Notes under the pieces: generated by a model
What the model saw: the letters and a program-made list of their open reading frames with translations, nothing else
Told to the model about the DNA's origin: nothing
Database searches by the model: none
From: Blastocatellia bacterium
GTDB lineage: Bacteria > Acidobacteriota > Blastocatellia > HR10 > J050
Length of the DNA stretch: 38,548 nt
Direction: 5' to 3'
Assembly (NCBI GenBank): GCA_026985075.1
Contig: JALSQX010000062.1
Coordinates: 1-38,548, forward strand
In this document: positions 5,123 to 38,097 of the stretch, piece by piece
Numbering within the stretch: position 1 is the stretch's first letter
Layout: the number at the start of each line of letters is the position of its first letter
Translations under genes and position numbers: made by a program

Positions 5123-5209
5123 TTACTCGCATCCCAATTCCGCGGTCGCGACAGAAATCATCTTTTTCGCGACAGAAAGTCTCATTTTTTTTGCGACGAA
5201 AAGCCTCAT
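5123..5209 (-). repeat. 24-bp tandem repeats, also an open mini-ORF
   Basis: On the minus strand two 24-bp units and a shortened third follow each other: ATGAGGCTTTTCGTCGCAAA, then ATGAGACTTTCTGTCGCGAA, then ATGATTTCTGTCGCGACC. As codons they read MRLFVAKK, MRLSVAKK, MISVATAELGCE and stop at 5123-5125. No Shine-Dalgarno is seen, so translation is doubtful. The repeated GCGACAGAAA-like core on the plus strand, just upstream of the Cys-rich gene at 5086, would also suit a multi-site operator. Confidence 0.5.
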
Positions 5210-5210
5210 C

Positions 5211-5227
5211 GGATCGAATACCGATCC
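5211..5227. promoter_or_regulatory. Perfect 6-5-6 inverted repeat beside the tandem repeats
   Basis: GGATCG, five bases (AATAC), then CGATCC form a perfect palindrome about 125 bp upstream of the Cys-rich gene and directly next to the 24-bp repeats. It could be a regulator site or a small hairpin. No T-run follows, so it is not a terminator. Confidence 0.3.
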
Positions 5228-5370
5228 GCCAAGAGATCAATAATGACAACAATCAGGGTTCCACGACGAAAAATAGCAAGACTCCGGCGGTGGAGAAGCA
5301 GAATGCGTACGCGATCTCGAGATCGGCCAAGCGAATGGCGGTCAACCCAACAGTTCTGAGGAGGAACGAT

Positions 5371-5862
5371 CTATTCGCGTTTGAGAACATCGTGCCGCGA
5401 GAGGATGCGCTTGATGATCTCGGTCGTGGAATATCCTCGAAGATAGGGAAGCGAATAAACGCGCCCTCCCGCGGCTTCGACCTCTTCCCGCCCGACAATT
5501 TGATCGAGCGGCCAATCGCCGCCTTTGACCAGAATATCGGGCAGAAGCACGGCGATCAGGTCGCGAGGCGTGGGTTCGTCAAACACCGTCACTACATCGA
5601 CGACCTCCAACGCCGCCAACACTTCGCACCGCTCGTCCTCATTCAAGATCGGGCGCCCCGGCCCTTTGAGCTGACGTACCGAACGATCACTATTGATGGC
5701 CACGATGAGGACATCCCCCAGAGCGCGCGCCTGATGCAAAAACCGCACATGGCCCGGATGAATGAGGTCGAAGCAGCCGTTTGTGAACACCACACGTCGG
5801 CCCTGCCGGCGCCATTGCTGACGTCGAGCAATGAGATTCTGGCGATCGAGAATCTTCGACAT
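5371..5862 (-). CDS. rfaE2: D-glycero-beta-D-manno-heptose 1-phosphate adenylyltransferase
   Basis: A 163-residue cytidylyltransferase-like enzyme that transfers AMP from ATP to heptose 1-phosphate in the ADP-heptose pathway for lipopolysaccharide inner core. The N-terminal nucleotide-binding motif [17 protein letters not shown] (about residues 26-42, with the HxGH signature) and the C-terminal [11 protein letters not shown] are typical of the stand-alone adenylyltransferase (RfaE domain II, without the kinase domain). The ATG at 5860-5862 was preferred; a TTG three codons upstream is also in frame, and neither has a clear Shine-Dalgarno. No other heptose gene is adjacent. It implies an outer membrane with heptose-containing LPS. 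Confidence 0.9.
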
Positions 5863-12360: not shown

Positions 12361-13536
12361 TCATCCGGCAGCGAGGTGCCGCTCGTAGGCCTTCGTCTCC
12401 AGGATCGCCTCGATCTCGCGGATGGCCAGTTCGAGTTCCTCGTCCTTGGTGTAAAAATGAGGAGCGAGCCGAATACCGGCACCCGGGCGATAGTCGACCA
12501 ACACATCGCGTCGATTCAACTCCGCCGCCACGGCTTGAGCGTGAGGAACGTCAATGGCCACCGTGCCACCACGCGCGTGGGGATCGCGCGGCGTATTGAC
12601 CCGATAGCCTCGCTCTTCGGCCAACTCAATGAGCCGGCTCGTCTGCCGTATGGATTTCTGGCGAATCTTGTCGACGCCCACCTCGGCGATGATCTCATAG
12701 CCACTTTGCGCCGCATAGAGGGCGGGGATATGCGGCGAACCATGGAGGAAACGCCGGATGTCACGAGCATATTCAATCGGCCCGATTTCAAAAGCGAATG
12801 GCCGGGCGTGAGCCATCCACCCCGTCACCTTCGGTTCGAGCTGCGACCAGAGATCGGGGCGCACATAGAGATATCCGGCCCCCGGCCCGCCACACAGCCA
12901 CTTGACCGAACCGCCGACGAGGAAATCGACATCCAGCTCCTTGACATCGATCGGCACGGTCCCCACCGACTGATAGGCATCCAGGAGGACTTTCGCCCCC
13001 ACCTCATGTGCCCGTTCGACGATCGGTTTGGGGTCCACAATGGCGGCACTCTTGAAGAAGACGTGCGAGATCACGACCACTTGTGTCTCCTCATCAATGG
13101 CCGCCAGGATCTTTTCCATCGGCACCGACAGACCGTCCTCGGAGGCCACCACCTCGCTCCGCGCCCCATAGCCGGAGAACGCTTCGCACACATACATGAC
13201 CGAGGGGAATTCCATATCGGTATACACGATCTTATTGCGCCGGCCCGTGAAGTCGAAACAGGAGAGGACGAGCGCCACGCCCACAGAGACATTCTGATGC
13301 ATGACCACTTCGCCGGGACGCGCGCCGATGATGCGGGCCAACAGATTCCCCGTCGTCACGGGCATCTCCCACCACCCCTCCTCCCAAGCACGGATGCCCC
13401 GACTCGCCCAGACATCGGCATACTCACGGAGTCGATCATATACCCGACGCGGCATCGCGCCCAAGCTGTGACTGATCATATAGACCGTGTTCTCCAAGAT
13501 GGGAAACTCCTTCCGCCATTCTAAGAGCTCATCCAT
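12361..13536 (-). CDS. kynU: Kynureninase-like PLP enzyme
   Basis: A 391-residue fold-type I PLP enzyme of the class V aminotransferase/kynureninase group. ATG 13534-13536 is chosen because GGAGGTGA stands 7-8 nt upstream; the frame is open further up without a ribosome site. The PLP lysine lies in GGSVKWLCGGPGAGYLYV, with DAYQSVGTVPIDV and QVVVISHVFFKSAA as cofactor-site strands and YRPGAGIRLAPHFY near the C-terminus. It would cleave kynurenine to anthranilate and alanine. The call rests on the GGSVKW-CGG motif and the upstream tryptophan 2,3-dioxygenase. Other class V enzymes, such as isopenicillin-N-epimerase-like proteins, are possible. No formamidase gene is in the window. Confidence 0.82.
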   Translation of the reverse strand: MDELLEWRKEFPILENTVYMISHSLGAMPRRVYDRLREYADVWASRGIRAWEEGWWEMPVTTGNLLARIIGARPGEVVMHQNVSVGVALVLSCFDFTGRRNKIVYTDMEFPSVMYVCEAFSGYGARSEVVASEDGLSVPMEKILAAIDEETQVVVISHVFFKSAAIVDPKPIVERAHEVGAKVLLDAYQSVGTVPIDVKELDVDFLVGGSVKWLCGGPGAGYLYVRPDLWSQLEPKVTGWMAHARPFAFEIGPIEYARDIRRFLHGSPHIPALYAAQSGYEIIAEVGVDKIRQKSIRQTSRLIELAEERGYRVNTPRDPHARGGTVAIDVPHAQAVAAELNRRDVLVDYRPGAGIRLAPHFYTKDEELELAIREIEAILETKAYERHLAAG

Positions 13537-13661
13537 GGTCCTTTCACCTCCGGTCATTGAATTGTTGATTCCCCCATCTCGCTGAGGACGTCTTCTATGC
13601 CGCCCCGTCGCACGATCCGCCGCCACTTCACGTCCTCCCCGCAACAGCGCCTTCAATGATG

Positions 13662-14471
13662 TCAATAGGTTCCCTCGCCGAGATGGGTCCGCACGGCCCA
13701 CAGTTCGGGAAAGAATTTCCTCTCCAGCGTGCGCTTCAAGTAGGGGACACCTTCACTGCCGCCGGTCCCTCGCTTGTATCCGATCACCCGTTCGACCATG
13801 CGAACGTGACGGTCGCGCCAGAGGCAAAAATGCTCATCATAGTCGATGAGCGCCTCGCAGAGTTGGTAGAGGTCGACGTGCTCATCCGGGGCCTCATGGA
13901 TCTTCAACAGCTCGTTCAGGCACTGCTCGTATCCCTGTTCGTCGAAATGGCTGCCCTCCGGAATCCGAAATCCGTGACGCCGCAAGACCTCGAAGAAGAC
14001 GTCCCGGAGCGACGGCTCCCGCCACCGCTTCCGGAGGCGCTCGAAAGCCACAGCATCGTGTCGATGATGTTCGAGGAAAGATTCATCCTTCAGCCCGGAG
14101 ACGAATTCTAATTCGCGGAACTGCCAGGATTGAAATCCACTAGCCGGTTTGAGGTTGTTCCGGAATTCCAGAAAATCCTGCGGACGCATCGTCTCCAGAA
14201 CCTCGATTTGCTGGAGTAAGACCCTCTGGATCTCGATGACGCGTCGCATCAGTCGAACGGCCGTCTTCAGATCATCGCGGCGGAGTCGGTCGATGATCTC
14301 ATCGATCTCGTGCAACATGAGTTTGAACCAGAGTTCGTACACCTGATGCACAATGATGAACTGTAACTCGTCGTGGTGAGGCGGATCCGACAAACAGACC
14401 TGCAGTTGCAATAATTCGGGTACCTTGAGATAGTCTCCGTAGGTCAATGCTGGCCGATATGGATTGCCCAT
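13662..14471 (-). CDS. kynA: Tryptophan 2,3-dioxygenase
   Basis: A 269-residue heme dioxygenase that opens the indole ring of tryptophan to N-formylkynurenine. Family motifs: YGDYLKVPELL, the heme-pocket segment DELQFIIVHQVYELWFKLML, RPQDFLEFRNNLKPASGFQS (substrate site) and the proximal-His region LCEALIDYDEHFCLWRDRHV, then GTGGSEGVPYLKRTL near the C-terminus. The ATG at 14469-14471 follows GGAGGG by 7 nt; a start 29 codons earlier is open but lacks a ribosome site. It lies 84 bp after the acyl-CoA dehydrogenase and 125 bp before kynU on the same strand. Confidence 0.95.
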   Translation of the reverse strand: MGNPYRPALTYGDYLKVPELLQLQVCLSDPPHHDELQFIIVHQVYELWFKLMLHEIDEIIDRLRRDDLKTAVRLMRRVIEIQRVLLQQIEVLETMRPQDFLEFRNNLKPASGFQSWQFRELEFVSGLKDESFLEHHRHDAVAFERLRKRWREPSLRDVFFEVLRRHGFRIPEGSHFDEQGYEQCLNELLKIHEAPDEHVDLYQLCEALIDYDEHFCLWRDRHVRMVERVIGYKRGTGGSEGVPYLKRTLERKFFPELWAVRTHLGEGTY

Positions 14472-14554
14472 AACTTTACCCTCCGACCCCCCATGGAGGA
14501 ATATCCTCGATGCCCCTCGACGAACCGGGAGTTCGCCTGGAGCATCCGAGATGT

Positions 14555-15706
14555 TCACGAACCTTTGAGCAACTCTCTGGCGATGACCACCCGCTGAATT
14601 TCCGACGTTCCTTCGTAAATCCGCAGCGCGCGAATCTCTCGATAGAGGCGCTCGACCACCGTCCCTCGCACCACCCCCTGGCCTCCGTGAATTTGCACCG
14701 CTTGATCGATGATGCGCTGGGCTACTTCGGTGGCGTAAAACTTGGCCATCGACGATTCCCGCGTCACTCGCGTCGCCCCTCGATCCTTCTTCCAGGCGGC
14801 GCGATATACTAACAATCGAGCCGCTTCTAATTCGGTCGCCATCTCGGCCAGCTTGAACTGAATGCCCTGAAACTCAGCCAATGGTCGCCCGAATTGTACG
14901 CGGCGCTGGCTGTACGCCAACGCCTCATCCAAGGCTCGTCGAGCCATACCAATGGCCGCCGCCGCCACCGTCGATCGAAATACGTCGAGCGTCTGCATGG
15001 CGATTTTGAATCCTTGTCCCTCCTCACCGAGAAGATGGTCGCGGGGAATGCGACACCGCTCGAACTTCACCCGACCGATGGGGTGCGGCGCGATGAGCTT
15101 CAATGCCTCATCAAGCGCGAAACCGGGAGTCGACGCCTCGACGACGAACGCCGAGAGGCCGCGATGTCCTTGATCCGGATCGGTCTTGGCAAATACGACA
15201 TAGAAATCGGCCAGTCCAGCATTGGAAATGAACGTCTTGATCCCGTTGAGCTCATAGTGATCGTCTGTTCGGTTGGCCGTCATCTGAATCGCCGAGACAT
15301 CCGAGCCCGCCTCTGGCTCAGTCAACGCGAAGGCAGCAATCGCCTCCCCTCGGGCCACGGACGGCAGGTATCGCCGTTTGAGCGCCTCGCTTCCGGCCAG
15401 CGTGATGGGGTAACTCCCCAAGCCCTGCATGGCGAACATGGTGTCGGCCAATCCAGAAACATAAGCGAGTCCATCGCGAATGAGGCACAACGAACGAACA
15501 TCAAGGCGGGGCGAGAAACCACCATAGGCTTCCGGGACGACGTGGCGCAACAAGCCCGCCGAGGCCATGAGCCGAACGAGTTCTCGGGCGCGCGCTTCCT
15601 CATGTTCGTCTTCGACGGCGCGGGGCGCGACGTCGCGCTCGGCGAACTGGCGAACGGCCGATTCCAGCTCCTGGTGTTTCTCGGTGAAGAAAGGGAGTGG
15701 TTCCAT
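14555..15706 (-). CDS. Acyl-CoA dehydrogenase
   Basis: A 383-residue FAD enzyme of the short/medium-chain acyl-CoA dehydrogenase family: FALTEPEAGSDVSAIQ (FAD binding), a middle beta domain (ELNGIKTFISNAGLADFYVV), a helical C-terminal domain with QRRVQFGRPLAEFQGIQFKL and IHGGQGVVRGTVVERLYREI, and the catalytic base in RIYEGTSEIQR. It oxidises an acyl-CoA to the 2-enoyl-CoA with transfer to ETF. It begins 3 bp after the end of the crotonase gene, so the two act as a pair. In this operon an aromatic-derived CoA thioester may be the substrate, which is inference from context. Confidence 0.92.
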   Translation of the reverse strand: MEPLPFFTEKHQELESAVRQFAERDVAPRAVEDEHEEARARELVRLMASAGLLRHVVPEAYGGFSPRLDVRSLCLIRDGLAYVSGLADTMFAMQGLGSYPITLAGSEALKRRYLPSVARGEAIAAFALTEPEAGSDVSAIQMTANRTDDHYELNGIKTFISNAGLADFYVVFAKTDPDQGHRGLSAFVVEASTPGFALDEALKLIAPHPIGRVKFERCRIPRDHLLGEEGQGFKIAMQTLDVFRSTVAAAAIGMARRALDEALAYSQRRVQFGRPLAEFQGIQFKLAEMATELEAARLLVYRAAWKKDRGATRVTRESSMAKFYATEVAQRIIDQAVQIHGGQGVVRGTVVERLYREIRALRIYEGTSEIQRVVIARELLKGS

Positions 15707-27760: not shown

Positions 27761-28006
27761 ATGACAATAGTCAAATCGGTAAGACTGAGCAAAAAAGGAC
27801 AACTTGTGATCCCCAAGGAGATCCGTCAAGCATTGGGCGTCGAGGAGGGTGATGAGCTGCTCATGACACTTGAGGAGGGGCGAGTGATCTTGACGCGGCC
27901 GGAACAGTACGCTCGAGCCACTCGAGGGATACTCAAAGGGACGTGGGGGAAAACCCACCAAGCGGTCGCCCGCTATCTGAACAAGGAGCGTCAATCGTGG
28001 GAGTGA
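27761..28006 (+). CDS. vapB: AbrB-type (VapB) antitoxin
   Basis: An 81-residue protein with a swapped-hairpin AbrB/SpoVT DNA-binding domain (VRLSKKGQLVIPKEIRQALG, EGDELLMTLEEGRVIL) and a C-terminal tail (GILKGTWGKTHQAVARYLNK) that would wrap the toxin. It has a near-consensus promoter and a strong Shine-Dalgarno. It probably represses its own operon together with the toxin. It overlaps the toxin start by 10 bp. Confidence 0.9.
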   Translation: MTIVKSVRLSKKGQLVIPKEIRQALGVEEGDELLMTLEEGRVILTRPEQYARATRGILKGTWGKTHQAVARYLNKERQSWE

Positions 28007-28470
28007 AGCGGGCGAAGTTCGTCAAGGAACTGAACAGGTTCACCAAAGTAGGGCTCGATAGTTCTATCCTTATCTACCATTTGGAGGATATCGAACCTTA
28101 CTCAGTTCTCACTGAGATAGTCTTTACGGCCATCGCTGCTGGATCACATACGGCCATCCTCTCCACGATTTCTGTGACGGAGCTATTGGTCAAACCCTTT
28201 GCTGAGAAGCAGCGCAATCGAGTCGCTGTGTTTGAACGCTTCATCCGATCTTTGCCCCACGTGGTTCTCATACCCCCACATTACGATGTGGCCAAAGAAG
28301 CGGCTCGGTTGCGAGGTCAGTATCGCTTGCGAACACCGGATGCGCTGCTTATAGCCACAGCTCTTGGTGAGAAAGCCGAAGCCTTCATCACCAACGACGG
28401 CCAACTGCGTAAGCTGAAGGCCGAGGGGATCGCCATTGTAGTATTGGATGACTATGTCTCGATGAGATGA
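27997..28470 (+). CDS. vapC: PIN-domain (VapC) ribonuclease toxin
   Basis: A 157-residue PIN-domain protein. It has the acidic residues expected for the metal site: Asp in VGLDSSILIYHLE, Glu in SVTELLVKPF, Asp in RTPDALLIATAL and Asp in AFITNDGQLRKL. Such toxins cut tRNA or rRNA when the antitoxin is lost. GTG 27997 is chosen because AAGGAG lies 8 nt upstream; GTG 28003 would overlap the vapB stop as GTGA but is further from the ribosome site. It forms a type II toxin-antitoxin pair with vapB. Confidence 0.9.
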   Translation: MGVKRAKFVKELNRFTKVGLDSSILIYHLEDIEPYSVLTEIVFTAIAAGSHTAILSTISVTELLVKPFAEKQRNRVAVFERFIRSLPHVVLIPPHYDVAKEAARLRGQYRLRTPDALLIATALGEKAEAFITNDGQLRKLKAEGIAIVVLDDYVSMR

Positions 28471-28777: not shown

Positions 28778-30027
28778 GTTTCCATAATAACATGGCATAT
28801 CAATTAGCCTTCTCTATTTCGTCTCATTTGTAATTCCATTTAAAGACAGTGGGCATGTCATTGCATTCATCGAGATGAGCGAGAAGGCGCTTTTCGAGTT
28901 CTTCGATGGAGTCCACTCGAATCCCTATTTAAAAGACACCGGGATAGTTTACTGAAAACGTCTCGATGAGACTTAACCAGGAACCATGAGTGCGAGTGAA
29001 GATGAACTCGAAGCGATTCGGCACACTCTGGAGATAGGCCTGAGTGTCTTTGGAGGTATGCACCGAATGATGATCCAGGATCATTTTGATTTTCACCTGT
29101 TGGGGATAGAAGGCGTCTAAATGTTTGAGTGTTCGACGAATTCTTCACTCCGATGGCGATCGGCCCCTTGCCCATGCACGTGTCCGATTACCAGATCAAT
29201 GGAAGCTAACACCGAGACGGTGCCCAGACGTTTGTATTCATAATCTCTTTTGAAAGTGGGGTGTTGACCCGGTACCGGTGGCCGATCCGGACTCACAGTT
29301 TGAATCGCCTGGATACCCGATTTCTCGTCATAAGAGAGCAGGACAACGGTCTGTTCTGGCCGATCTTCAAGGGCAGCCCGTAAGAGGGCGACCTCCCGAT
29401 GAATATGCAATACCTGCACCATCTTGCTTTCAAAGTCCGGATCACGCCGCTCCACATCATAGCGAATCTGATGAGGACGAACCTCAGCCTGGCGTAAAAT
29501 TTTGGACACGGTGCTGTGAGCCGGCTTGGCCAGCTCGGGATAGCCCACCTCCTGACCATGGGTCCGCACATGCTGAGCCAGTAAGGCGGTCGTCCACCAC
29601 TCAGCCGCATACCCTAAGTCTTTAGGTTTCTGACCGGCGAGCGACCAGATCCAGGCGCGGGCGTGAGGTGAAATCCTTGCCGGTTTACCAGGCCGGGGCA
29701 GATCATCCCAAGACGCCAAGGCACCACACCTTAAGGCCCGGTCAACGGGACGTTCCTCCCGGGACCGATGGGGCTTACAGTGTCTGGTTATATTCGTGAC
29801 CGTTTCACCCGAATAATAAGCTCACCGCATCGGCGCCCGCTCCACGCGCACATGGCGTTCCTGACGAGAACGACTAATTCGTCTTCACTCTCGAAGCTCC
29901 TGCTCGGAAAGCTGAAGCCTGCTCTTTGACTGGGACGGGGCATGAGGGTTCCTCCTTCGTCTAATTTGGTGGAGTCGGAACACAATATACAAAATCTATC
30001 AGTTATATGCCATACCATCATGGAAAC
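28778..30027 (-). mobile_element. IS630-family insertion sequence relic, about 1.25 kb
   Basis: Imperfect inverted repeats bound the element: GTTTCCATAATAACATGGCA at 28778-28797 continuing to CATAT, and on the other strand from 30027 GTTTCCATGATGGTATGGCA continuing to CATAT. The four differences are all transitions. Between them lies a decayed IS630/Tc1-type transposase gene. No clean TA target duplication is visible, which fits an old copy. Confidence 0.7.
28824..29943 (-). pseudogene. IS630-family transposase, broken by several frameshifts and stops
   Basis: It starts at ATG 29941-29943 behind GAAGGAGGAA. The N-terminal HTH part (LQLSEQELRE, SRSRQERHVRVERAP, GETVTNITRHCKPH) needs a frame change and has two stops. 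A long intact middle (29117-29719) reads ASWDDLPRPGKPARISPHAR, KPKDLGYAAEWWTTALLAQH, LLSYDEKSGIQAIQ and VLASIDLVIGHVHG. After another shift comes IKMILDHHSVHTSKDTQAYL and SWLSLIETF (the DDE acidic residues), then the tail VDSIEELEKRLLAHLDECND. At least three frameshifts, so inactive. Confidence 0.8.
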
Positions 30028-30146: not shown

Positions 30147-31601
30147 TTATCGAATGTCATAGCGCAGAAAGAGTACAAGAGCGAGAACAAAGGTCAGCGC
30201 TCCGAGCAATCCCAGAACACATATATCTAAGAGAGCGTGTTGAATGCTTTGAAAGAAATTGGATGTGAGCATACGGAACTCCGGCAGGAGCTCTCGATTG
30301 AATGGAACATTTGCGTACGATATGCTCTCGATACTATTGAGTCGATAGGTGACGCCATGATAAGTGATTTGCGTCCAGCCACCACGGACATCTGCCTGGT
30401 CTCTGAACCGCCGTCGAAGTGATTGGACGATGTCCGTATATGTATTCAAAAACCGCTCTGCCGAGGAGAGAAATTGGCGATGGCGTACGACCCCCGCAGG
30501 TAATATTGTGTCGATTGCATACTGATACGTGGCGGCTGGAGAGAGGCGGCTCAACAACCGCACCATTTCCGCTTGATGCATGAGTTTCGCTGAGTAAGCA
30601 GCCAAGATCTTACCGGTGGTAATAGCAAACGTCTCAATAGCCTGTTCATGACGGGCATATGTCTCAGCTTGTAGCGCCGCCAGTCGCTTCTGCTTTTGTG
30701 TCTCAGTGAGTCCAGGCATGGTAACAATGTCCCAAATCGCCTGTCCAGAAAGGCCCGTAGCGCTGAACTTCATGCGCCTAGCTGCTTCTAATTGATTTTG
30801 TAATTCTTTGAGTGAAGGGACGGGATACCAACCCTCCACGAGCAGTCGTGCTGCACCGGGTATCACAATGACCAAGCAAACCCATACCAACAAAGAAGCC
30901 ACCAATGCTGTTGAGGCTCGTTCGAAGAACGTCGATGTCAACAATCCAATGCCGCCCATAACCAAGATGAATTGAGCCGATAAAAGAATCACCAACCCAA
31001 TTTTTATCCATCCTTCCGAGTCCAATTGAACGTGGTCATTCAGAAGAATCAACAACATCCCCAACAAGCAGGAGATGACTAACGGAACCCAAATCATGAT
31101 AATGTTCCCGATGAAGCTCCCGAGTATGACAATGGAGCGAGAGCAAGCGTTAGAGAGCATCTGTCTCAACGTCCCCGACTCCTTCTCCCCTACAACAGTG
31201 TCATAGGTGATGAGAATGGCCAAGAAACTATATACATAAGTGATAAGGAAAACCCAATCAAACGACGGCGCATCGCGTAATAGCGACTGTTCGCTCGTGT
31301 CAGTATTCTGAACATAATGTAAAATATGAGGCTCGATCTTCATAAGATTTGGAAGATCCTGTTCGCCATCGCGAATGAACATGAATAGATTGGGCGGTTT
31401 AACTATGAATGCGTGATCCAAATTCGTCCGCTCACGAGCATGGTAGCGAAGATATCGATAGCTTTCGCGCCGAACTGCTAACTCGTCGATGGATGCCCAT
31501 GTCGAGATGCCGACCAATCCTAATGATACGCTCAAAAGTAGGAAAAATCGAAGATCATAGAGTCGCTTCAGGACCTCTTTCTTGATGATAAGCCCGAGCA
31601 T
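30147..31601 (-). CDS. ABC-2-type transporter permease (second of a pair)
   Basis: A 484-residue membrane protein with an N-terminal membrane segment (LRFFLLLSVSLGLVGISTWA), a long extracytoplasmic region, the typical central block VFLITYVYSFLAILITYDTV-GEKESGTLRQMLS (the permease-ATPase coupling motif), four to five more helices, a second long loop (about 260-440) and a final helix (LLDICVLGLLGALTFVLALV). The pattern is that of ABC-2 family/DUF3526 permeases. GAGGGA precedes ATG 31601, and the stop of the first permease is 20 bp upstream, so the two are cotranscribed and probably form a heterodimer. No ATPase gene is in the window. Likely exporter part of the Cys-rich peptide locus (inference). 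Confidence 0.85.
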   Translation of the reverse strand: MLGLIIKKEVLKRLYDLRFFLLLSVSLGLVGISTWASIDELAVRRESYRYLRYHARERTNLDHAFIVKPPNLFMFIRDGEQDLPNLMKIEPHILHYVQNTDTSEQSLLRDAPSFDWVFLITYVYSFLAILITYDTVVGEKESGTLRQMLSNACSRSIVILGSFIGNIIMIWVPLVISCLLGMLLILLNDHVQLDSEGWIKIGLVILLSAQFILVMGGIGLLTSTFFERASTALVASLLVWVCLVIVIPGAARLLVEGWYPVPSLKELQNQLEAARRMKFSATGLSGQAIWDIVTMPGLTETQKQKRLAALQAETYARHEQAIETFAITTGKILAAYSAKLMHQAEMVRLLSRLSPAATYQYAIDTILPAGVVRHRQFLSSAERFLNTYTDIVQSLRRRFRDQADVRGGWTQITYHGVTYRLNSIESISYANVPFNRELLPEFRMLTSNFFQSIQHALLDICVLGLLGALTFVLALVLFLRYDIR

Positions 31602-31621
31602 GGATTTCCCTCACCTGCGAT

Positions 31622-32887
31622 TCACTCGGTCACTGGACACCTGTTGAGCGCTCGTAACGCGCCCCACCAGCAGGACAGATTAAAAATCACCAGCAAGACG
31701 ATGTCAGGGAAAATGCGGTGCAGAGATTGCGCGATACTCTCAGGCTGATACTCAGCCGCCGGGAGTCCACTAATATCTAATGGAATCGGTTCAAATCGGA
31801 CATCCCGTCCCGGATAACGTCGTAATTTTTTCTCTTGCCAACTCATCAATCGCGCGTTTAAAAGGCGTGCCTGATTAACAAACCGAATGTGAGTGCCGAT
31901 ATCCGTCTGGGCCATCACCCTCGCTGCGCGTATGTATGCAGTGGAAGGAGCAAGCATGCGGAGGCGCTCGGCTACAAGGGCCTGAGTCGATAAGCGCCTC
32001 CAGGTGTCCTCACTGCGCCGGGGCGTCCACGACTGGAAAAAGGCTTTATCTAGAATCCCATAAGTGGGAGCCAGTCGTCGGGCAAGCGTAGGAATGGAAT
32101 TGGGATACACAATCACTAACCCAACCCAAATGACGAGCAACACGGCCAAACTCGTTGCAGAGCTTCGGGCCTGCGCCGAAATCCACAAGCCGAGAAATAT
32201 CAATCCGGAAAGAAAGAAGAGCGTTAATCCCCAAATAATGACTAACCGGATGACCTCGGAAGCAGATAACGAGACGACGGGAGGAATATGTAAAATCATT
32301 AGCCACAGGAACATCATGAATACAAGGGGCAGCATCAAGCTAATAAGTACACCGCTGTATTCTCCTAATAGGAGCTGATGTCGTGACACACTGTAGGAGA
32401 GACATAGTTTCAGTAGCCCCTGTTCTCGTTCTCCACAGATCACATCATGGGTGAGGAAGATCACCAATAATGAAAAAAACAGGAGGACGAGCTGTGAGAA
32501 ATCCAAGTCTAGCAACTTCGAAAGAAACAGATTGGTTGGAGTCAACGTTAGGATTTTCTGAGTTCGTGGATCATCGGGAAAATCAACCATGAATTTTCCG
32601 CCCAATTGAGCGATATTCCCATATCGCCCACCCACACCCGACACAAGGATACTCAAAGGCGTGGGCTGGCGAAGCATCTGTAAGATCACCTGCCGATACA
32701 CTCGAGCCCGTCTGAGCTTGGCTTGATGGATCAGCCGCTGTTCATTCAGGTTATTCAACTCTCGCCGATACACCTGCTTGCCATTAATGCTGCTCAGGCC
32801 AAAAAGCAAAAACACCAGTAACACCGCGCCGAGCAAGCGGAACTCGATCATATTTAGAATCAGTCGCTTGTAGAGAAAGCGTATCAC
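31622..32887 (-). CDS. ABC-2-type transporter permease (first of a pair)
   Basis: A membrane protein of about 421 residues, built like the downstream permease: N-terminal helix (FRLLGAVLLVFLLFGLSS), a loop of about 110 residues, the block LVLLFFSLLVIFLTHDVICG followed by EREQGLLKLCLSYSVSRHQL, four further helices, a long loop and a C-terminal helix (IVLLVIFNLSCWWGALRAL). The start is uncertain: TTG 32902, GTG 32887 and ATG 32851 are in frame, none with a clear Shine-Dalgarno. GTG 32887 (VIRFLYKRLILNMIEF) best matches how such permeases begin. A palindrome at 32969-32990 lies before it. Confidence 0.8.
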   Translation of the reverse strand: MIRFLYKRLILNMIEFRLLGAVLLVFLLFGLSSINGKQVYRRELNNLNEQRLIHQAKLRRARVYRQVILQMLRQPTPLSILVSGVGGRYGNIAQLGGKFMVDFPDDPRTQKILTLTPTNLFLSKLLDLDFSQLVLLFFSLLVIFLTHDVICGEREQGLLKLCLSYSVSRHQLLLGEYSGVLISLMLPLVFMMFLWLMILHIPPVVSLSASEVIRLVIIWGLTLFFLSGLIFLGLWISAQARSSATSLAVLLVIWVGLVIVYPNSIPTLARRLAPTYGILDKAFFQSWTPRRSEDTWRRLSTQALVAERLRMLAPSTAYIRAARVMAQTDIGTHIRFVNQARLLNARLMSWQEKKLRRYPGRDVRFEPIPLDISGLPAAEYQPESIAQSLHRIFPDIVLLVIFNLSCWWGALRALNRCPVTE

Positions 32888-32968
32888 TGTTGTTGTGATC
32901 AAGGAACGCTTTGTGGCATGAGTTACGAATTAGGTGCGAAGTCCGGTAGATATCAGAGCAGATCCCGA

Positions 32969-32990
32969 TCACCTGAGGTGACCGTTCACC
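32969..32990. promoter_or_regulatory. Overlapping palindromes upstream of the permease pair
   Basis: TCACCTGAGGTGA (32969-32981, perfect with one central base) overlaps GGTGACCGTTCACC (32977-32990, near-perfect). They share a GGTGA arm, so two alternative hairpins or two adjacent operator half-site pairs are possible, about 80 bp before the first permease. Confidence 0.4.
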
Positions 32991-33042
32991 ATGTCAGGAC
33001 GCGTTATCTAGTTTAATGTGACACATCAGATGGACACTCGCA

Positions 33043-33132
33043 CTACCTCCATGTAGCTCCTGTCCTCAAACAGTACCGCCACTCACCGCTTTCTCTAGCG
33101 ATTGCTAATGAAAGAGTGATCTTTCTCAGCAT
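33043..33132 (-). pseudogene. Truncated remnant of a second Cys-rich peptide gene
   Basis: It begins right behind propeller copy B with MLRKITLSLAIA, close to the start of the intact peptide (MVRKILVSLAIV). After 12 codons the match is lost, and the frame ends at TAG 33043-33045 after 29 residues (RESGEWRYCLRTGATWR). The ribosome site AGGAGG again includes the last codons of the propeller gene. No Cys-rich part remains in any frame before 32903. Confidence 0.6.
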
Positions 33133-33136
33133 GATT

Positions 33137-34258
33137 TTACCTCCTGAACGAATTAGCTACAAGAAGCCGATAACAACTCGATGTATCAGTCGCATACAGG
33201 ATTCCACCATTGCTCGTTAACGTCCACAGAGAACCGCTTTCGATCTTCTCCTGGCGGAGAAGCCCAAGTTTTTCACCAGCTCTATCAGCAACGTAAATGA
33301 TATCGGCCGCCCCAAGAAGGATTAAAATCTGACTTGTCTTCGCGTTCACAGCAATGTCATTACATATGACGGCCATTTGAATGCCATCGATATTCATGGT
33401 AGTCTCGGCCTCAAACGTTTCCATGGCCGGATCAGGCTTGAGCACCTGCCAAAATGACTTTGTGAGAATTTCAATGAGCGGCCCCTTTAAGTTCCTCTCC
33501 CAAAGGAGGTTTCCGGCCGCGTCGTATTTTTGAATGATAGGAGCGAAGAGGTACGCCACGTAGAGATTGTCCCCTTCATCTATGTCCATAACCACACGAC
33601 TGAGCGGCACCTGGTATTTCTCGTCATCAGGGTGCCCGGGATACGCATGCGATAGGCTCATGAGATCACCGAATTGCCTCAGCAATTTTCCTTCGCTTGA
33701 GTAGACGGAGATCAGGCGACCCCGTGTAGGATGATTGAGAAAGATCTCGCCGCGTGAATTCACTACCAGATCAGGAGATATAAGAGGAGAGTGAAATCCT
33801 CCTATACGATGACCTGATTGGTCGAAGATCTGGGTACGAAAATTATCCGAATCTCCTACATAAAGCCACCCATGAGGTCCGAGCACCAGTGGACCAGGAT
33901 GATTGAGATCCTCCGGCCCCTGTCCCAATTGGCCAATTTGGAATTTGAAGTTCTCAGATGGGTCGAAGACACACACTCGGTGATTATTCTTATCCACGAC
34001 ATAGTAATTCCCCCGGCGGTCGCGGCGAAGATGCTGGGGATGATCGAACTCAAATCCGTTGAAGAGTCGAACCTTCCGGTAAATATTGACTTTCGTCTCC
34101 TTTTTCTGACGCGGCTGAGCATTTGTCGATGCAGTATTTGAGAACAGGAATCCGACACTGGTCTTGGGTGGGCGTCTCTCCATCGCTATGAGAGCGAGAA
34201 GAAGAGAAACAAATGCTCCTATCCCCACTATTATCCATAACTGGCGTTTACCCTTCAT
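33137..34258 (-). CDS. Six-bladed beta-propeller protein, copy B
   Basis: A 373-residue protein with an N-terminal signal anchor (QLWIIVGIGAFVSLLLALIA) and NHL/6-bladed-propeller repeats: NYYVVDKNNHRVCVFDPSEN, QGPEDLNHPGPLVLGPHGWL, GDSDNFRTQIFDQSGHRIGG, DNLYVAYLFAPIIQKYDAAG. Whole segments are identical or nearly so to copy A (35041-36207). ATG 34256-34258 follows AAAGGAGTGAG; that ribosome site and the preceding bases are a duplicate of the 3' end of the redoxin gene. The last codons (AGG AGG TAA) are the ribosome site of the peptide remnant. It is probably a periplasmic or surface binding protein, with no enzyme motif. Confidence 0.85.
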   Translation of the reverse strand: MKGKRQLWIIVGIGAFVSLLLALIAMERRPPKTSVGFLFSNTASTNAQPRQKKETKVNIYRKVRLFNGFEFDHPQHLRRDRRGNYYVVDKNNHRVCVFDPSENFKFQIGQLGQGPEDLNHPGPLVLGPHGWLYVGDSDNFRTQIFDQSGHRIGGFHSPLISPDLVVNSRGEIFLNHPTRGRLISVYSSEGKLLRQFGDLMSLSHAYPGHPDDEKYQVPLSRVVMDIDEGDNLYVAYLFAPIIQKYDAAGNLLWERNLKGPLIEILTKSFWQVLKPDPAMETFEAETTMNIDGIQMAVICNDIAVNAKTSQILILLGAADIIYVADRAGEKLGLLRQEKIESGSLWTLTSNGGILYATDTSSCYRLLVANSFRR

Positions 34259-34300
34259 CCCACTCACTCCTTTTGAAACTCCGCCAGCCAGCGGTCTAAT
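34243..34300. repeat. 58-bp exact duplicate of the redoxin/propeller junction, second copy
   Basis: Identical to 36192-36249: the first codons of the propeller, its Shine-Dalgarno, and the last dozen codons of the redoxin gene. Beyond 34300 the similarity to the redoxin gene stops sharply. It marks the breakpoint of a cassette duplication. Confidence 0.9.
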
Positions 34301-34752
34301 CTGCCGCATCCTCGTTCATCCGTGTCTCATTACCATGTTCATCCTTTCGGTGTAGCGACGACGCGCCATTGCCCATGAGCGATTCCCTTGCCATATGGAG
34401 TGCTACAACTCACGTAGCCAACTGATGGAACATCATCCTTCTCGCCGGCGCCTTAGAACCTCATCCAGTGGAGTTTGCTTGAAACCAGATCGGCGAATAT
34501 GCAGCCAATTTCATATCGCATGATCAGGATGAGTTGCGAACCAGCACCTCTGCGGAATGGCCTGCATGTGTCCCGCGCAATAAGAACGGTGAACCAATCT
34601 TGCTGGCTCTAACTTGCTGTACTCATCCCACCCCTTAGCTGGGAATCGCCGATGGCGTCACCAACGGTTACCCCTAAGACTTTGAAGAACCCGCTGTCGC
34701 GAGGGTGCCATTTCCTTCCCTCAAGAGGCAGCGAAATACAGAAACCGCCCGA
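34301..34752. other. Interval between peptide gene and propeller copy B; holds repeat copy D
   Basis: About 450 bp without a supported gene. The dispersed repeat core lies at 34333-34370. No terminator with a T-run was seen after the peptide gene, so read-through into copy B is possible. Confidence 0.4.
34328..34375. repeat. Dispersed intergenic repeat, copy D (core only)
   Basis: On the minus strand CAATGGCGCGTCGTCGCTAC then ACCGAAAGGATGAACATGG, matching copies A-C. It lies about 75-110 bp upstream of the start of propeller copy B. Confidence 0.55.
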
Positions 34753-35034
34753 TCATGTGATAACATCAATGATGCTAATCCCGATCTGGATCCAATCCCA
34801 TATACCCATTCCTTCTCCATCCCCACCTCCAGTCGGTTCGCAGGTACACGTGTCACAGGTACAGGAACAGACACACTCACCACTACCGCTACAACTCGTT
34901 TCTCCGCAACAGGACGCCTGGCAACCATCGGCGTAGACACGGGGAGGAACATCAGTCACTACTGCCATACTCACAAGTCCAACTGTTGAGAGCGTCAAAA
35001 CGATCGCTAATGAGACAAGAATTTTTCTTACCAT
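34753..35034 (-). CDS. Secreted Cys-rich peptide
   Basis: A 93-residue product: signal peptide (MVRKILVSLAIVLTLSTVGL) with a likely cut at VYA-DG (about residue 36), then a dense cysteine block DGCQASCCGETSC / GECVCSCTCDTCTC with ten cysteines in about 30 residues, a Gly-rich linker (PTGGGDGEGMG) and a hydrophobic C-terminal helix (IWDWIQIGISIIDVIT). The Shine-Dalgarno AAAGGAGGTGA contains the propeller A stop codon, so translation is coupled. The neighbouring protein with a CPSC thioredoxin domain could form or shuffle its disulfides. The peptide may be a surface or cell-associated structure, a metal binder or an antimicrobial peptide; the sequence cannot decide. In Bacteroidota, small NVEALA peptides sit beside 6-bladed propellers and redoxins, which is similar in layout only. 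Confidence 0.75.
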   Translation of the reverse strand: MVRKILVSLAIVLTLSTVGLVSMAVVTDVPPRVYADGCQASCCGETSCSGSGECVCSCTCDTCTCEPTGGGDGEGMGIWDWIQIGISIIDVIT

Positions 35035-35040
35035 GATGGT

Positions 35041-36207
35041 TCACCTCCTTTGTGGATCAGTGCTGGATACAACAAGTCGATAACATCTCGCCCTCGCCCA
35101 GCGCGTTCCATACAAGGTTCCATTGTTGACCGTTAAAGTCCACAATGAACCGCGTCCGATTTCTCCTTTCTTTTGACTGATGAGTTCGATTTTCCTGCCG
35201 GTCACCCCATCAGCGACATAAATAATATCAGCGAAACCCAACAGAACGAAGATTCGATTAGTCGTCCTGTCTACGGCAATGCTCTTACAAATCACAGCCA
35301 TTTGAACCCCATCAATACTCATCGTGAATGGGGCTCTGAGTTTCTGTTTTTCACCAGTGCGATGTTTCATTTCAGCCCAGAATATCTTCGTAAGGAAGTC
35401 AATGAATGGACCCTCCAGTCTTTGCTCCCATACCAATTTTCCAGAGGCATCGTATTTCTGGATGATCGGAGCAAAGAGATACGCCACATAGAGGTTATCC
35501 TCCTCATCCATATCCATCATCACACGGCTGAGTAACCGGCGATATTTCTCATCATCAGAATATCCTGGGTAGGCTCGCGACATGCTGATCAAATCACCGA
35601 ATTGTCTGCGGAGTTCACCCTCGCTCGAGTAGACGGAAATAAGATGCCCCTTTGTCGGATGGTTGAGGAAGATTTCACCATGAGAATTGACTGCCATTGA
35701 GGGAGTTTTAAGAGGCGATTGGAATCCCGCCACCCGATGTCCCTGCTGATCAAAGATCTGTATGCGAAGATTATCCGCATCTCTAACGTAAAGCCGACCA
35801 TCTCTGCCTATCACGAATCCGGTTGGGTGGTTCAAATCCTCTGGACCTTGCCCCAACCGGCCGATCTGGAATCTAAATTTTTCGGAGGGATCGAAGACAC
35901 AAATCCGATGATTGTTCTGATCCAACACATAATAGTTCCCTTCGCGGTCACGACGAACGAACTTTGGAATGTCAAATCTGAACCCTTCGAATAAGAGCAC
36001 CTTTCGATAAGTCGTGACGATCTTTTCCTTCTCTTGCGATGATCTCGTATGAGCATTCCGGGAATCCGATAGAACCATATCGTTATCCTCGCCACGATCA
36101 ATATCATGGAGCAAAGACGATCGTTCCTTCACAGTTATCGAAGTGATGAGAGCCACTGTGAGGACCGTCATGCTTATGATTGACCACAACCGGCGTTTAC
36201 CCTTCAT
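35041..36207 (-). CDS. Six-bladed beta-propeller protein, copy A
   Basis: A 388-residue protein with an N-terminal anchor (LWSIISMTVLTVALITSITV) and the same propeller repeats as copy B: NYYVLDQNNHRICVFDPSEK, QGPEDLNHPTGFVIGRDGRL, DADNLRIQIFDQQGHRVAGF, DEEDNLYVAYLFAPIIQKYD. ATG 36205-36207 (MKGKRRLW) is preferred over GTG 36216, because AAAGGAGTGA overlaps the redoxin stop and lies at correct spacing. It ends DPQRR-stop, where AGG AGG TGA is part of the next gene's ribosome site. It lies between the redoxin and the peptide in a tight operon. It probably binds the peptide or its precursor at the cell surface (inference). Confidence 0.88.
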   Translation of the reverse strand: MKGKRRLWSIISMTVLTVALITSITVKERSSLLHDIDRGEDNDMVLSDSRNAHTRSSQEKEKIVTTYRKVLLFEGFRFDIPKFVRRDREGNYYVLDQNNHRICVFDPSEKFRFQIGRLGQGPEDLNHPTGFVIGRDGRLYVRDADNLRIQIFDQQGHRVAGFQSPLKTPSMAVNSHGEIFLNHPTKGHLISVYSSEGELRRQFGDLISMSRAYPGYSDDEKYRRLLSRVMMDMDEEDNLYVAYLFAPIIQKYDASGKLVWEQRLEGPFIDFLTKIFWAEMKHRTGEKQKLRAPFTMSIDGVQMAVICKSIAVDRTTNRIFVLLGFADIIYVADGVTGRKIELISQKKGEIGRGSLWTLTVNNGTLYGTRWARARCYRLVVSSTDPQRR

Positions 36208-36249
36208 CCCACTCACTCCTTTTGAAACTCCGCCAGCCAGCGGTCTAAT
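36192..36249. repeat. 58-bp duplicate of the redoxin/propeller junction, first copy
   Basis: Original copy, spanning the redoxin 3' end and the propeller A start; identical to 34243-34300. Confidence 0.9.
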
Positions 36250-37253
36250 GGCTCAATGGCTCGAACTCTGCTATTCTCATCCGTCATGATGACGATCACC
36301 TCTGCCCAAGCTGGCGCTCTGGTGACATAGGGTGATCCCAGAACCTCAAACTCCTCTTCAGCGAGATAGATATCCAAAGTGACAGTGAGATCCTCCATCT
36401 GATCGATCAGTTCACGAAGGGAGAACCGTCGGCTGAAGATAAAGTACAGGCGCTGCGCCTCGAGCGACGCGGATCGCTCCATCATGGCAAGCTGGTGTAA
36501 ATACTCCGGCAATCGACAGGACGGGCAATGAGCGGTGAAGAAGATGATCGTGCTACTGATCAGTTCTAAATCCTGCAATGTCAACCGGGTACCCCGTTTC
36601 ACATCAATGAGCCTGTACGGTGGAAGCAAATCTCCCGGTTGTAACTTAATGACCCAATCTTGCTCAATCTCATAATTGATAGAGCCTACGAGATATCTCT
36701 CCACTAATTGGCGAAGGTCGTTGGGCGTCATCAGACGATTAAGTGACAATCGAATCACACCACTTGGATCAACGAACAAGAGTCCATAGCGGTGGTACCG
36801 AAAATGCAAGAGATTTCTCAGGTGATTCTTCGAGTCAACAATCACAGGATAAGAAATAGGTTGGTTGTCTAGAAGATGCTCTAATTCTTTGGTTACAACT
36901 CGTGTAATGCCCACTGGCTGCAGCCCTGAACTTCCATATTTCTGGGACAGTACCTCACAATAGCGTAAAAAATCGGTGACCGGATAACGCTCAAAGTAAA
37001 AGATCAATGCCCACTTCCCATGGATGAAGTCAGTATCAATCGTCTCTCCTGTTATGGTCATACCAGAGAAAGGTGGGAGTGGTTGCCCATAATTCAAATG
37101 AAGGTGTTTTTCCTCCGGAGGAGGCGTGGCTCTGAATACCGATAAAAAGTCATAGTTGCTGAAGAGATGTCCGAGAATAAGACCGTTGACCACAAAAGTG
37201 GCCGCAATAGTGAGATAAAAACCGATATTCTTCTTAGTCACTACCCTGCCCAT
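36213..37253 (-). CDS. Membrane-anchored protein with two thioredoxin-like domains
   Basis: A 346-residue protein: one N-terminal membrane segment (GFYLTIAATFVVNGLILGHL, about 11-30), then two TlpA/AhpC-like domains facing the periplasm. In domain 1 (about 50-200) the usual CxxC is replaced (WALIFYFERYPVTDF, residues 81-95), although the fold remains, for example GLLFVDPSGVIRLSL. Domain 2 (about 205-346) has FFTAHCPSCRLPE with Cys243 and Cys246. A redox-active plus a degenerate domain suggests a partner-binding oxidoreductase. GGAGG lies 5 nt before ATG 37251-37253. It is the first gene of the propeller-peptide operon, so a role in disulfide handling of the ten-cysteine peptide is likely. Confidence 0.85.
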   Translation of the reverse strand: MGRVVTKKNIGFYLTIAATFVVNGLILGHLFSNYDFLSVFRATPPPEEKHLHLNYGQPLPPFSGMTITGETIDTDFIHGKWALIFYFERYPVTDFLRYCEVLSQKYGSSGLQPVGITRVVTKELEHLLDNQPISYPVIVDSKNHLRNLLHFRYHRYGLLFVDPSGVIRLSLNRLMTPNDLRQLVERYLVGSINYEIEQDWVIKLQPGDLLPPYRLIDVKRGTRLTLQDLELISSTIIFFTAHCPSCRLPEYLHQLAMMERSASLEAQRLYFIFSRRFSLRELIDQMEDLTVTLDIYLAEEEFEVLGSPYVTRAPAWAEVIVIMTDENSRVRAIEPLDRWLAEFQKE

Positions 37254-37401: not shown

Positions 37402-37511
37402 CCACGCCCATCACAGGCTCGCCCATAGAGCGTTCCGGGGTCAATCACGGGCGACGCGCGAGCGTGGACTGGACCACGCCCGCCGCAGGCTCGCTCATAG
37501 AGCGTTCCGGG
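37402..37511. repeat. 72-bp-period direct repeat
   Basis: A 38-bp motif occurs at 37402-37439 and 37474-37511 with few differences; the shared core is CAGGCTCGC-C/T-CATAGAGCGTTCCGGG. Some similarity (CGACGYGCGAG) continues after each copy, so the true unit is near 72 bp with about 1.8 copies. Confidence 0.7.
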
Positions 37512-37680: not shown

Positions 37681-38097
37681 TCATCTTTTCCGTTGCTGCC
37701 ATAGCTTCATTCGGTACTGCTTCGGCGTGCAGCCCGTCCACCGTTTGAACGTGCGCTCGAACGAGCGGAGATTGGTGAATCCACTCCGGAAACACACGTC
37801 GGTTATGGAGAGCTGACGGTCCATCATGAGCAGCTTTGACCTTTCCACGCGGAGCAGAGCGAGGAAGTGCCAGGGGCTCAATCCGAGCTCCTCGCGAAAC
37901 AACCGGCGGAGATGAGCCTCGGAGGCGCACGCCCGAGAACTGAGCTCTGGCAGGCTGATCTTCTCTTGAACGTGATGCGCTATGTAGACGAGCGCCTTGG
38001 CCAGGGACGGATGATACGGCCTCAACGATTCTGTCGAACCGACGATCAACGTCCAAATCAGGTCACGCACTCTGCCATCGACTTCATCGATTCGCAT
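37681..38097 (-). CDS. AraC-family HTH regulator, HTH-only
   Basis: A 138-residue protein made almost wholly of the two-helix-turn-helix AraC domain: first HTH ISLPELSSRACASEAHLRRL, link EELGLSPWHFLALLRVERSK, second HTH SITDVCFRSGFTNLRSFERT followed by FKRWTGCTPKQYR. GGAGGGATAG lies upstream of ATG 38095-38097. Because it has no sensor domain, it may be controlled by expression level or by a partner protein. It lies 428 bp upstream of the redoxin-propeller-peptide operon on the same strand and could regulate it. It resembles the partial gene at 1-382. Confidence 0.88.
   Translation of the reverse strand: MRIDEVDGRVRDLIWTLIVGSTESLRPYHPSLAKALVYIAHHVQEKISLPELSSRACASEAHLRRLFREELGLSPWHFLALLRVERSKLLMMDRQLSITDVCFRSGFTNLRSFERTFKRWTGCTPKQYRMKLWQQRKR

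Follow-up and report, generated by a model that had tools for sequence, protein, structure and literature searches.

What does a small secreted peptide with ten cysteines do in a gene array that also encodes a thioredoxin-like protein, beta-propellers and two permeases? The question is raised by a 38,548-nt contig of a Blastocatellia bacterium (JALSQX010000062.1), which we refer to as the window. A first-pass annotation had proposed that a six-gene array on its minus strand (30.15-37.25 kb) encodes such a peptide together with its own folding, binding and export proteins. All six genes were confirmed at their coordinates. The first three are as tightly coupled as had been proposed, with overlapping stop and start signals. 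The features on which the argument depends are listed below.

36213..37253, minus strand: redoxin, a membrane-anchored double thioredoxin-fold protein of 346 amino acids (Pfam AhpC-TSA, 7.7e-8)
36516..36527, minus strand: CxxC motif (CPSC, residues 243-246) in thioredoxin domain 2, the redoxin's sole CxxC
35041..36207, minus strand: propeller 1, an exported or anchored NHL six-bladed propeller with an ATG start (NHL 9e-10, DUF5128 3e-9)
35041..35051, minus strand: ribosome-binding site of the peptide gene, AAAGGAGGTGA, overlapping the stop of propeller 1
34753..35034, minus strand: secreted Cys-rich peptide of 93 amino acids with 10 Cys, CQASCC...CVCSCTCDTCTC (from the sequence; ortholog in locus L050)
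34840..34923, minus strand: cysteine block of the peptide, residues 38-65 (from the sequence)

We conclude that the window and its relatives very probably share a conserved peptide cassette. Its function is less certain. On balance, we favour a dedicated production cassette, in which small disulfide-rich peptides are secreted and oxidatively folded. With a little more belief than doubt, we infer that the redoxin and the propeller carry out the folding chemistry.

The peptides are too diverged for a direct search, which found no relative among the genome contigs and, in the phylum, only weak matches beyond the peptide itself. Thus, loci were picked by propeller and redoxin, blind to the peptide, in 396 genomes of the window's own phylum and 395 Bacteroidota genomes. 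They were recovered from the same genus (L050 and L051, genome G396), the same order (L052, genome G399) and distant families of the phylum (L091-L097 and L123-L128). A propeller alignment search of contigs gave six loci, three of which repeated L051, L052 and L093. These three belong to Acidobacteria J050, Bacterium HR10 and Aminicenantes JdFR-78, respectively, and the phylum of the cassette was judged from the named relatives to be Acidobacteriota. A search of plasmids with the redoxin gave no match. A small secreted Cys-rich open reading frame (ORF) stood beside every complete redoxin-propeller locus. There were 15 such loci besides the tandem arrays: the window, L051, L052, L091-L097 and L123-L127, among which L095, L096, L126 and L127 are near-copies from close relatives. 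The gene order was redoxin-propeller-peptide-permease 1-permease 2 in L051, L052, L091 and L050 (which ends with its contig), redoxin-propeller-peptide(s)-propeller 2 in L092-L096 and L123-L127, and redoxin-propeller-peptide in L097. The first-pass annotation had staked its proposal on the peptide being found beside these genes in other genomes, and the order does recur in other genera and classes. The loci without a peptide were L018 (deletion), L115 (contig end) and L098 (degenerate). The redoxin gene of Bacterium HR10 has an in-frame stop (L052:587-589), which reflects either an assembly error or decay.

Could these genes be chance neighbours or remnants of mobile elements, with the small ORF not a gene at all? 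An IS630-type remnant downstream, a degraded duplicate within the window and broken redoxin or permease genes in L098 speak for such an origin. However, in a strict scan of ~420 kb, small secreted Cys-rich ORFs occurred solely near propeller loci, with no qualifying ORF elsewhere; the scan missed the L051 and L094 peptides, both recovered with a looser rule and by eye. Considering also the recurrence in distant classes, the near-consensus ribosome sites and the purifying selection described below, a chance origin is very improbable. A chance neighbourhood was rejected on the recurrence, the strict scan and the selection.

Among the window ORFs of 45-150 amino acids (n = 228), the peptide and one other (46 amino acids, five Cys) had at least 10% Cys. 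The peptide carries a Sec-type signal, and strong ribosome sites, like AAAGGAGGTGA, precede the peptide in most other loci. No Pfam or NCBIfam family matched the peptides. Orthologous peptides are under purifying selection, on which the first-pass proposal had also depended. The window and L050 orthologs gave a nonsynonymous rate (dN) of 0.48 and a synonymous rate (dS) of 1.79 (dN/dS 0.27), and the L095 and L127 peptides gave 0.064/0.72 (dN/dS 0.09). The ratio was looser for two paralogous peptides in L091 (0.19/0.29), whose signal sequences are near-identical and whose mature parts have changed. With two sequences only, this weakly suggests the pattern of diversifying peptide families.

The peptides fell into three types. 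Type 1, with C-x-[AG]-x-CC, was found in the window, L050, L052, L093, both L091 paralogs and all four tandem peptides of L125; the L051 peptide retains just the CC. Type 2, with C..C..CETFGxC in most cases, was found in L095, L123, L124, L127 and L128; L094 has CETWGYC, and the string is absent from L097. Type 3 peptides have CxCxC and occur in L092. The L128 locus also carries CX3C hairpin-like peptides: its segment 4242-13591 contains tandem AraC-redoxin-peptide-propeller cassettes with helical-hairpin-like CX3C peptides, and one of the redoxins is fragmented. The L125 and L091 peptides have the C-C-CC-C-C cysteine order of the knottin framework, although the peptide model was of low confidence and had no PDB match.

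Runs of CxCxC, present in the peptides of the window and L050 and in both of those of L092, invite another interpretation, namely that the peptide is a metallothionein-like metal binder at the surface or in the periplasm, whose thiols the redoxin keeps reduced while the permeases move the metal or the complex. The ResA/DsbE-type fold of redoxin domain 1 would suit a reductant as well as an oxidant. We consider a metal binder rather improbable: the spaced patterns of six to eight Cys in the other peptides (C..CETFGxC, helical CX3C hairpins) are unlike metallothioneins, and none of the operon genes looked like a metal transporter or a metal regulator.

In maximum-likelihood trees of the redoxin and of the propeller, type-1 and type-2 loci lay on opposite sides (split values for the redoxin and propeller trees of 95/92 and 93/97; 87/85 and 100/99). 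One genome, G521, holds both types (L125, type 1; L124, type 2); therefore, the types are split by module and not by host.

The AlphaFold2 model of the redoxin (predicted local distance difference test, pLDDT, 84) has a transmembrane helix at residues 7-33 followed by two thioredoxin-like domains. Domain 1 has a ResA/DsbE-like fold (Z 17-19) and no CxxC. In domain 2 the CxxC is almost fully conserved: in alignment A9 the second Cys is present in 14 of the 14 family members and the first in 13. The model and the alignment together give the redoxin the features of a TlpA/ResA-like protein, i.e. a thioredoxin fold, a CxxC, a membrane anchor and an extracytoplasmic position. The same alignment places a cis-proline opposite the CxxC in most type-2 redoxins and in the type-3 ones, and an extra CCG motif in domain 1 of most type-2 redoxins. 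Propeller 1 scored above the Pfam cut-off for both NHL (38.5 bits) and DUF5128 (PF17170; 36.9 bits). Outside the N-terminal signal region, Cys is absent from the propellers of L051 and L125, and across the propellers no Cys position is invariant. Thus, the peptide is the natural, and the sole constant, thiol client in the operon.

Peptides with their own disulfide proteins are known elsewhere. The bacteriocins sublancin (BdbB) and pediocin (PedC) have a dedicated thiol oxidoreductase. The likeness to our cassette is a peptide gene with its own thioredoxin-like disulfide protein; however, they are Gram-positive leader-peptide bacteriocins that have an ABC exporter of their own and lack a propeller. 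For the propeller, two systems are instructive. Profile A4 matched NHLRC2 and SOQ1 in PDB, in which a thioredoxin-like domain and an NHL propeller are likewise partners. Between them, the two domains of NHLRC2 make a cleft that has been proposed as the binding site of a protein ligand, and the NHLRC2 authors found no conserved neighbours in seven bacterial genomes (PMC6107167). In contrast, the cassette has separate coupled genes, two thioredoxin domains (with the CxxC in the second) and an adjoining Cys-rich peptide gene. At the window, the thioredoxin and NHL domains are not fused in a single chain, so the likeness to NHLRC2 and SOQ1 is one of working only. In epsilonproteobacterial DsbI, a periplasmic propeller is attached to a disulfide-forming membrane protein (PMC4460558). 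It shares with the cassette a propeller linked to disulfide-forming machinery, but has a DsbB-like membrane domain and no dedicated peptide.

Based on the lone thiol client, the NHLRC2 cleft and the DsbI propeller, the simplest model is Sec secretion of the peptide, followed by its binding and the formation or shuffling of its disulfides. Judging from its ribosome site and signal sequence, the peptide would be strongly translated and leave via Sec. Outside the membrane, the domain 2 CxxC of the anchored redoxin would form or shuffle its disulfides, and the NHL propeller might dock with the redoxin and provide a peptide-binding groove, by analogy with the thioredoxin and NHL domains of NHLRC2. 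The core of the cassette comprises a redoxin, a propeller and between one and four peptides; a second propeller is often present, and some loci lie under an AraC-type gene.

Several observations weigh against folding by this pair. In all type-1 redoxins, including that of the window, the cis-proline that should precede strand 4 of domain 2 is replaced by V, A, I or S (alignment A9). The thioredoxin-like domain of NHLRC2 showed no oxidoreductase activity in an insulin assay (PMC6107167). The structure model of the peptide was poor (pLDDT 70; predicted template-modelling score 0.31) and matched nothing. The window's own genome has a second cassette copy (contig C74, L018:9560-10720) in which a ~2.2 kb deletion removed the peptide gene and permease 1 along with the N-terminal portion of permease 2, yet the redoxin and propeller ORFs remain intact. 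The deletion is clean relative to the L050 flanks (88-90% identical), and the ribosome site and first codons of the peptide survive. Finally, propellers and Cys peptides occur in L019 (contig C36 of the same genome, 705-5383), where no redoxin is encoded. This cluster comprises a pair of propellers, a LolA-like protein and two secreted peptides rich in Cys (2079-2429 and 5201-5383).

Methylamine dehydrogenase suggests a different role for the same kinds of parts. It pairs a propeller heavy chain with a light chain rich in cystines, and the disulfides of the light chain depend on the thioredoxin-like MauD (MauB/MauD/MauA). By comparison, the peptide could be the small subunit of a propeller complex, either an enzyme or a receptor, and the redoxin its assembly factor. 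One operon here does contain a thioredoxin-like membrane protein, a propeller and a small Cys-rich secreted protein, and the redoxin, propeller and peptide types co-segregate. Nevertheless, we consider a propeller complex unlikely. There is no sequence match, with no amine dehydrogenase family found in Pfam or NCBIfam, and the propeller is of another family. The peptides are several and interchangeable. One propeller may accompany four of them (L125), and also scaffolds unrelated to each other (L128). A cofactor of the tryptophan tryptophylquinone type would call for a conserved Trp pair, and none was seen; the WDW of the window is missing from L050.

Production through oxidative folding, which we prefer, leaves the two permeases to be placed.

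31622..32902, minus strand: ABC-2 permease 1, DUF3526-type (Pfam ABC2_membrane_2, 1.6e-18)
30147..31601, minus strand: ABC-2 permease 2 (Pfam ABC2_membrane_2, 4e-24; orthologs in L050, L051, L052 and L091)

Within the window's class, the type-1 loci (window, L050, L051 and L052) carry the permeases, and so does L091. They were absent from the type-1 loci L093 and L125 and from all type-2 and type-3 loci. The ABC-2 permeases are therefore an optional add-on, outside the cassette core. When the window, L050, L051 and L052 were scanned by motif, no ORF for an ABC ATPase turned up; the ATPase may be encoded elsewhere. Of the folding, binding and export proteins first proposed, what stands is a conserved system with its own redoxin and propeller; an export protein of its own is unproven, because the permeases lie outside the core and no ATPase adjoins them. 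In type-1 loci the pair might be an addition that serves release, retention or self-protection and relies on an ATPase from elsewhere.

The first-pass annotation had also linked the peptide to the NVEALA family, whose small Cys-containing secreted peptides are encoded next to six-bladed propellers in Bacteroidota. The likeness is a small Cys-containing secreted peptide adjoining a DUF5128-type propeller. However, PF14055 matched neither the window peptide nor 10 relatives (maximum E 1) nor seven further peptides, and it had no match in any of 20 related genomes. None of the 395 Bacteroidota genomes had a full-length match to the double redoxin; with five candidates per genome scored, the matches covered essentially domain 1 only. 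In the NVEALA comparison in Bacteroidota, just two sub-threshold matches were seen, with no propeller nearby. Membership in NVEALA was rejected, since no peptide scores on PF14055, and the sequences do not support the link. The PADLOC anti-phage models matched none of five operon proteins, and PHROGs gave no match. Signs of ribosomally synthesized and post-translationally modified peptides (RiPPs), i.e. a PqqD-type recognition element or a modifying enzyme, were not seen in the window operon; a PqqD-domain protein occurs 0.8 kb past the operon in L091 only. There, the cassette is followed by this protein, a LolA-like protein and a further ABC-2 permease (12585-14937) and preceded by an ABC exporter (125-1909), surroundings that might represent a RiPP neighbourhood. 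In the collection of papers searched, neither NVEALA nor a peptide system of this kind came up.

The remaining features of the array concern its regulation and its duplication.

37681..38097, minus strand: AraC-family helix-turn-helix regulator gene, upstream of the redoxin on the same strand (HTH_18, 1.9e-23)
37402..37511, no strand: two direct repeats of 38 nt, 89% alike (37402-37439 and 37474-37511), between the regulator and the redoxin
33137..34258, minus strand: propeller 2, a tandem duplicate 59-60% identical to propeller 1 by comparison
33043..33132, minus strand: truncated second peptide gene; in its sequence the first ~12 codons are conserved, but the frame is a 29-amino-acid dead end

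The operon probably includes the AraC-type gene or comes after it; the redoxin is likewise preceded by an AraC-type gene in L051, in L091 and, twice, in L128. The direct repeats are a possible operator, and their 23-nt core occurs at no other site in the whole genome (at most two mismatches allowed). The propellers likely start at 36207 and 34258, rather than at the longest-ORF starts: an AAAGGAG ribosome site precedes the ATG at 36207, and the alternative GTG start of propeller 1 (36216) is overlapped by the redoxin stop codon. Propeller 2 and the truncated peptide start represent a tandem duplicate that has degraded; the peptide start reads MLRKITLSLAIAR and then loses register. The junction of 71 nt from the redoxin C-terminus to the propeller start (36179-36249 versus 34230-34300) is 94% identical, yet the propellers differ at ~40% of residues and their dS is saturated. 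A recent event of recombination or conversion is likely. The IS630-type transposase remnant is directly downstream of the array (29117-29719), and at 27761-28470 an AbrB-type antitoxin-like gene is followed by a PIN-domain toxin-like gene (judged by eye).

Systems that pair a secreted peptide with a thiol-disulfide protein of its own are already known in kind. New here are the propeller partner, the Gram-negative setting, the scaffold range and the peptide families. The combination of conserved machinery with cystine scaffolds that differ in sequence suggests that the peptides have an outward role, such as competition or signalling, although this is the weakest step of the model. Tentatively, one redoxin-propeller pair, duplicated and tuned by lineage, might form a phylum-wide platform for interchangeable cystine-rich scaffolds that act between cells. 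Its logic might, as a similarly tentative analogy, be compared with that of venom or defensin peptide families, but in Gram-negative, mostly uncultured hosts. The results name peptide families outside Pfam and NCBIfam, with their co-travelling machinery, in a phylum with few known secreted peptides. They also point, at the level of the operon, to a client for the pairing of thioredoxin fold and NHL propeller that is puzzling in NHLRC2 and SOQ1, by which the question of its substrate becomes testable. If the redoxin and the propeller do fold cystine-rich peptides, the pair could prove useful as a foldase.

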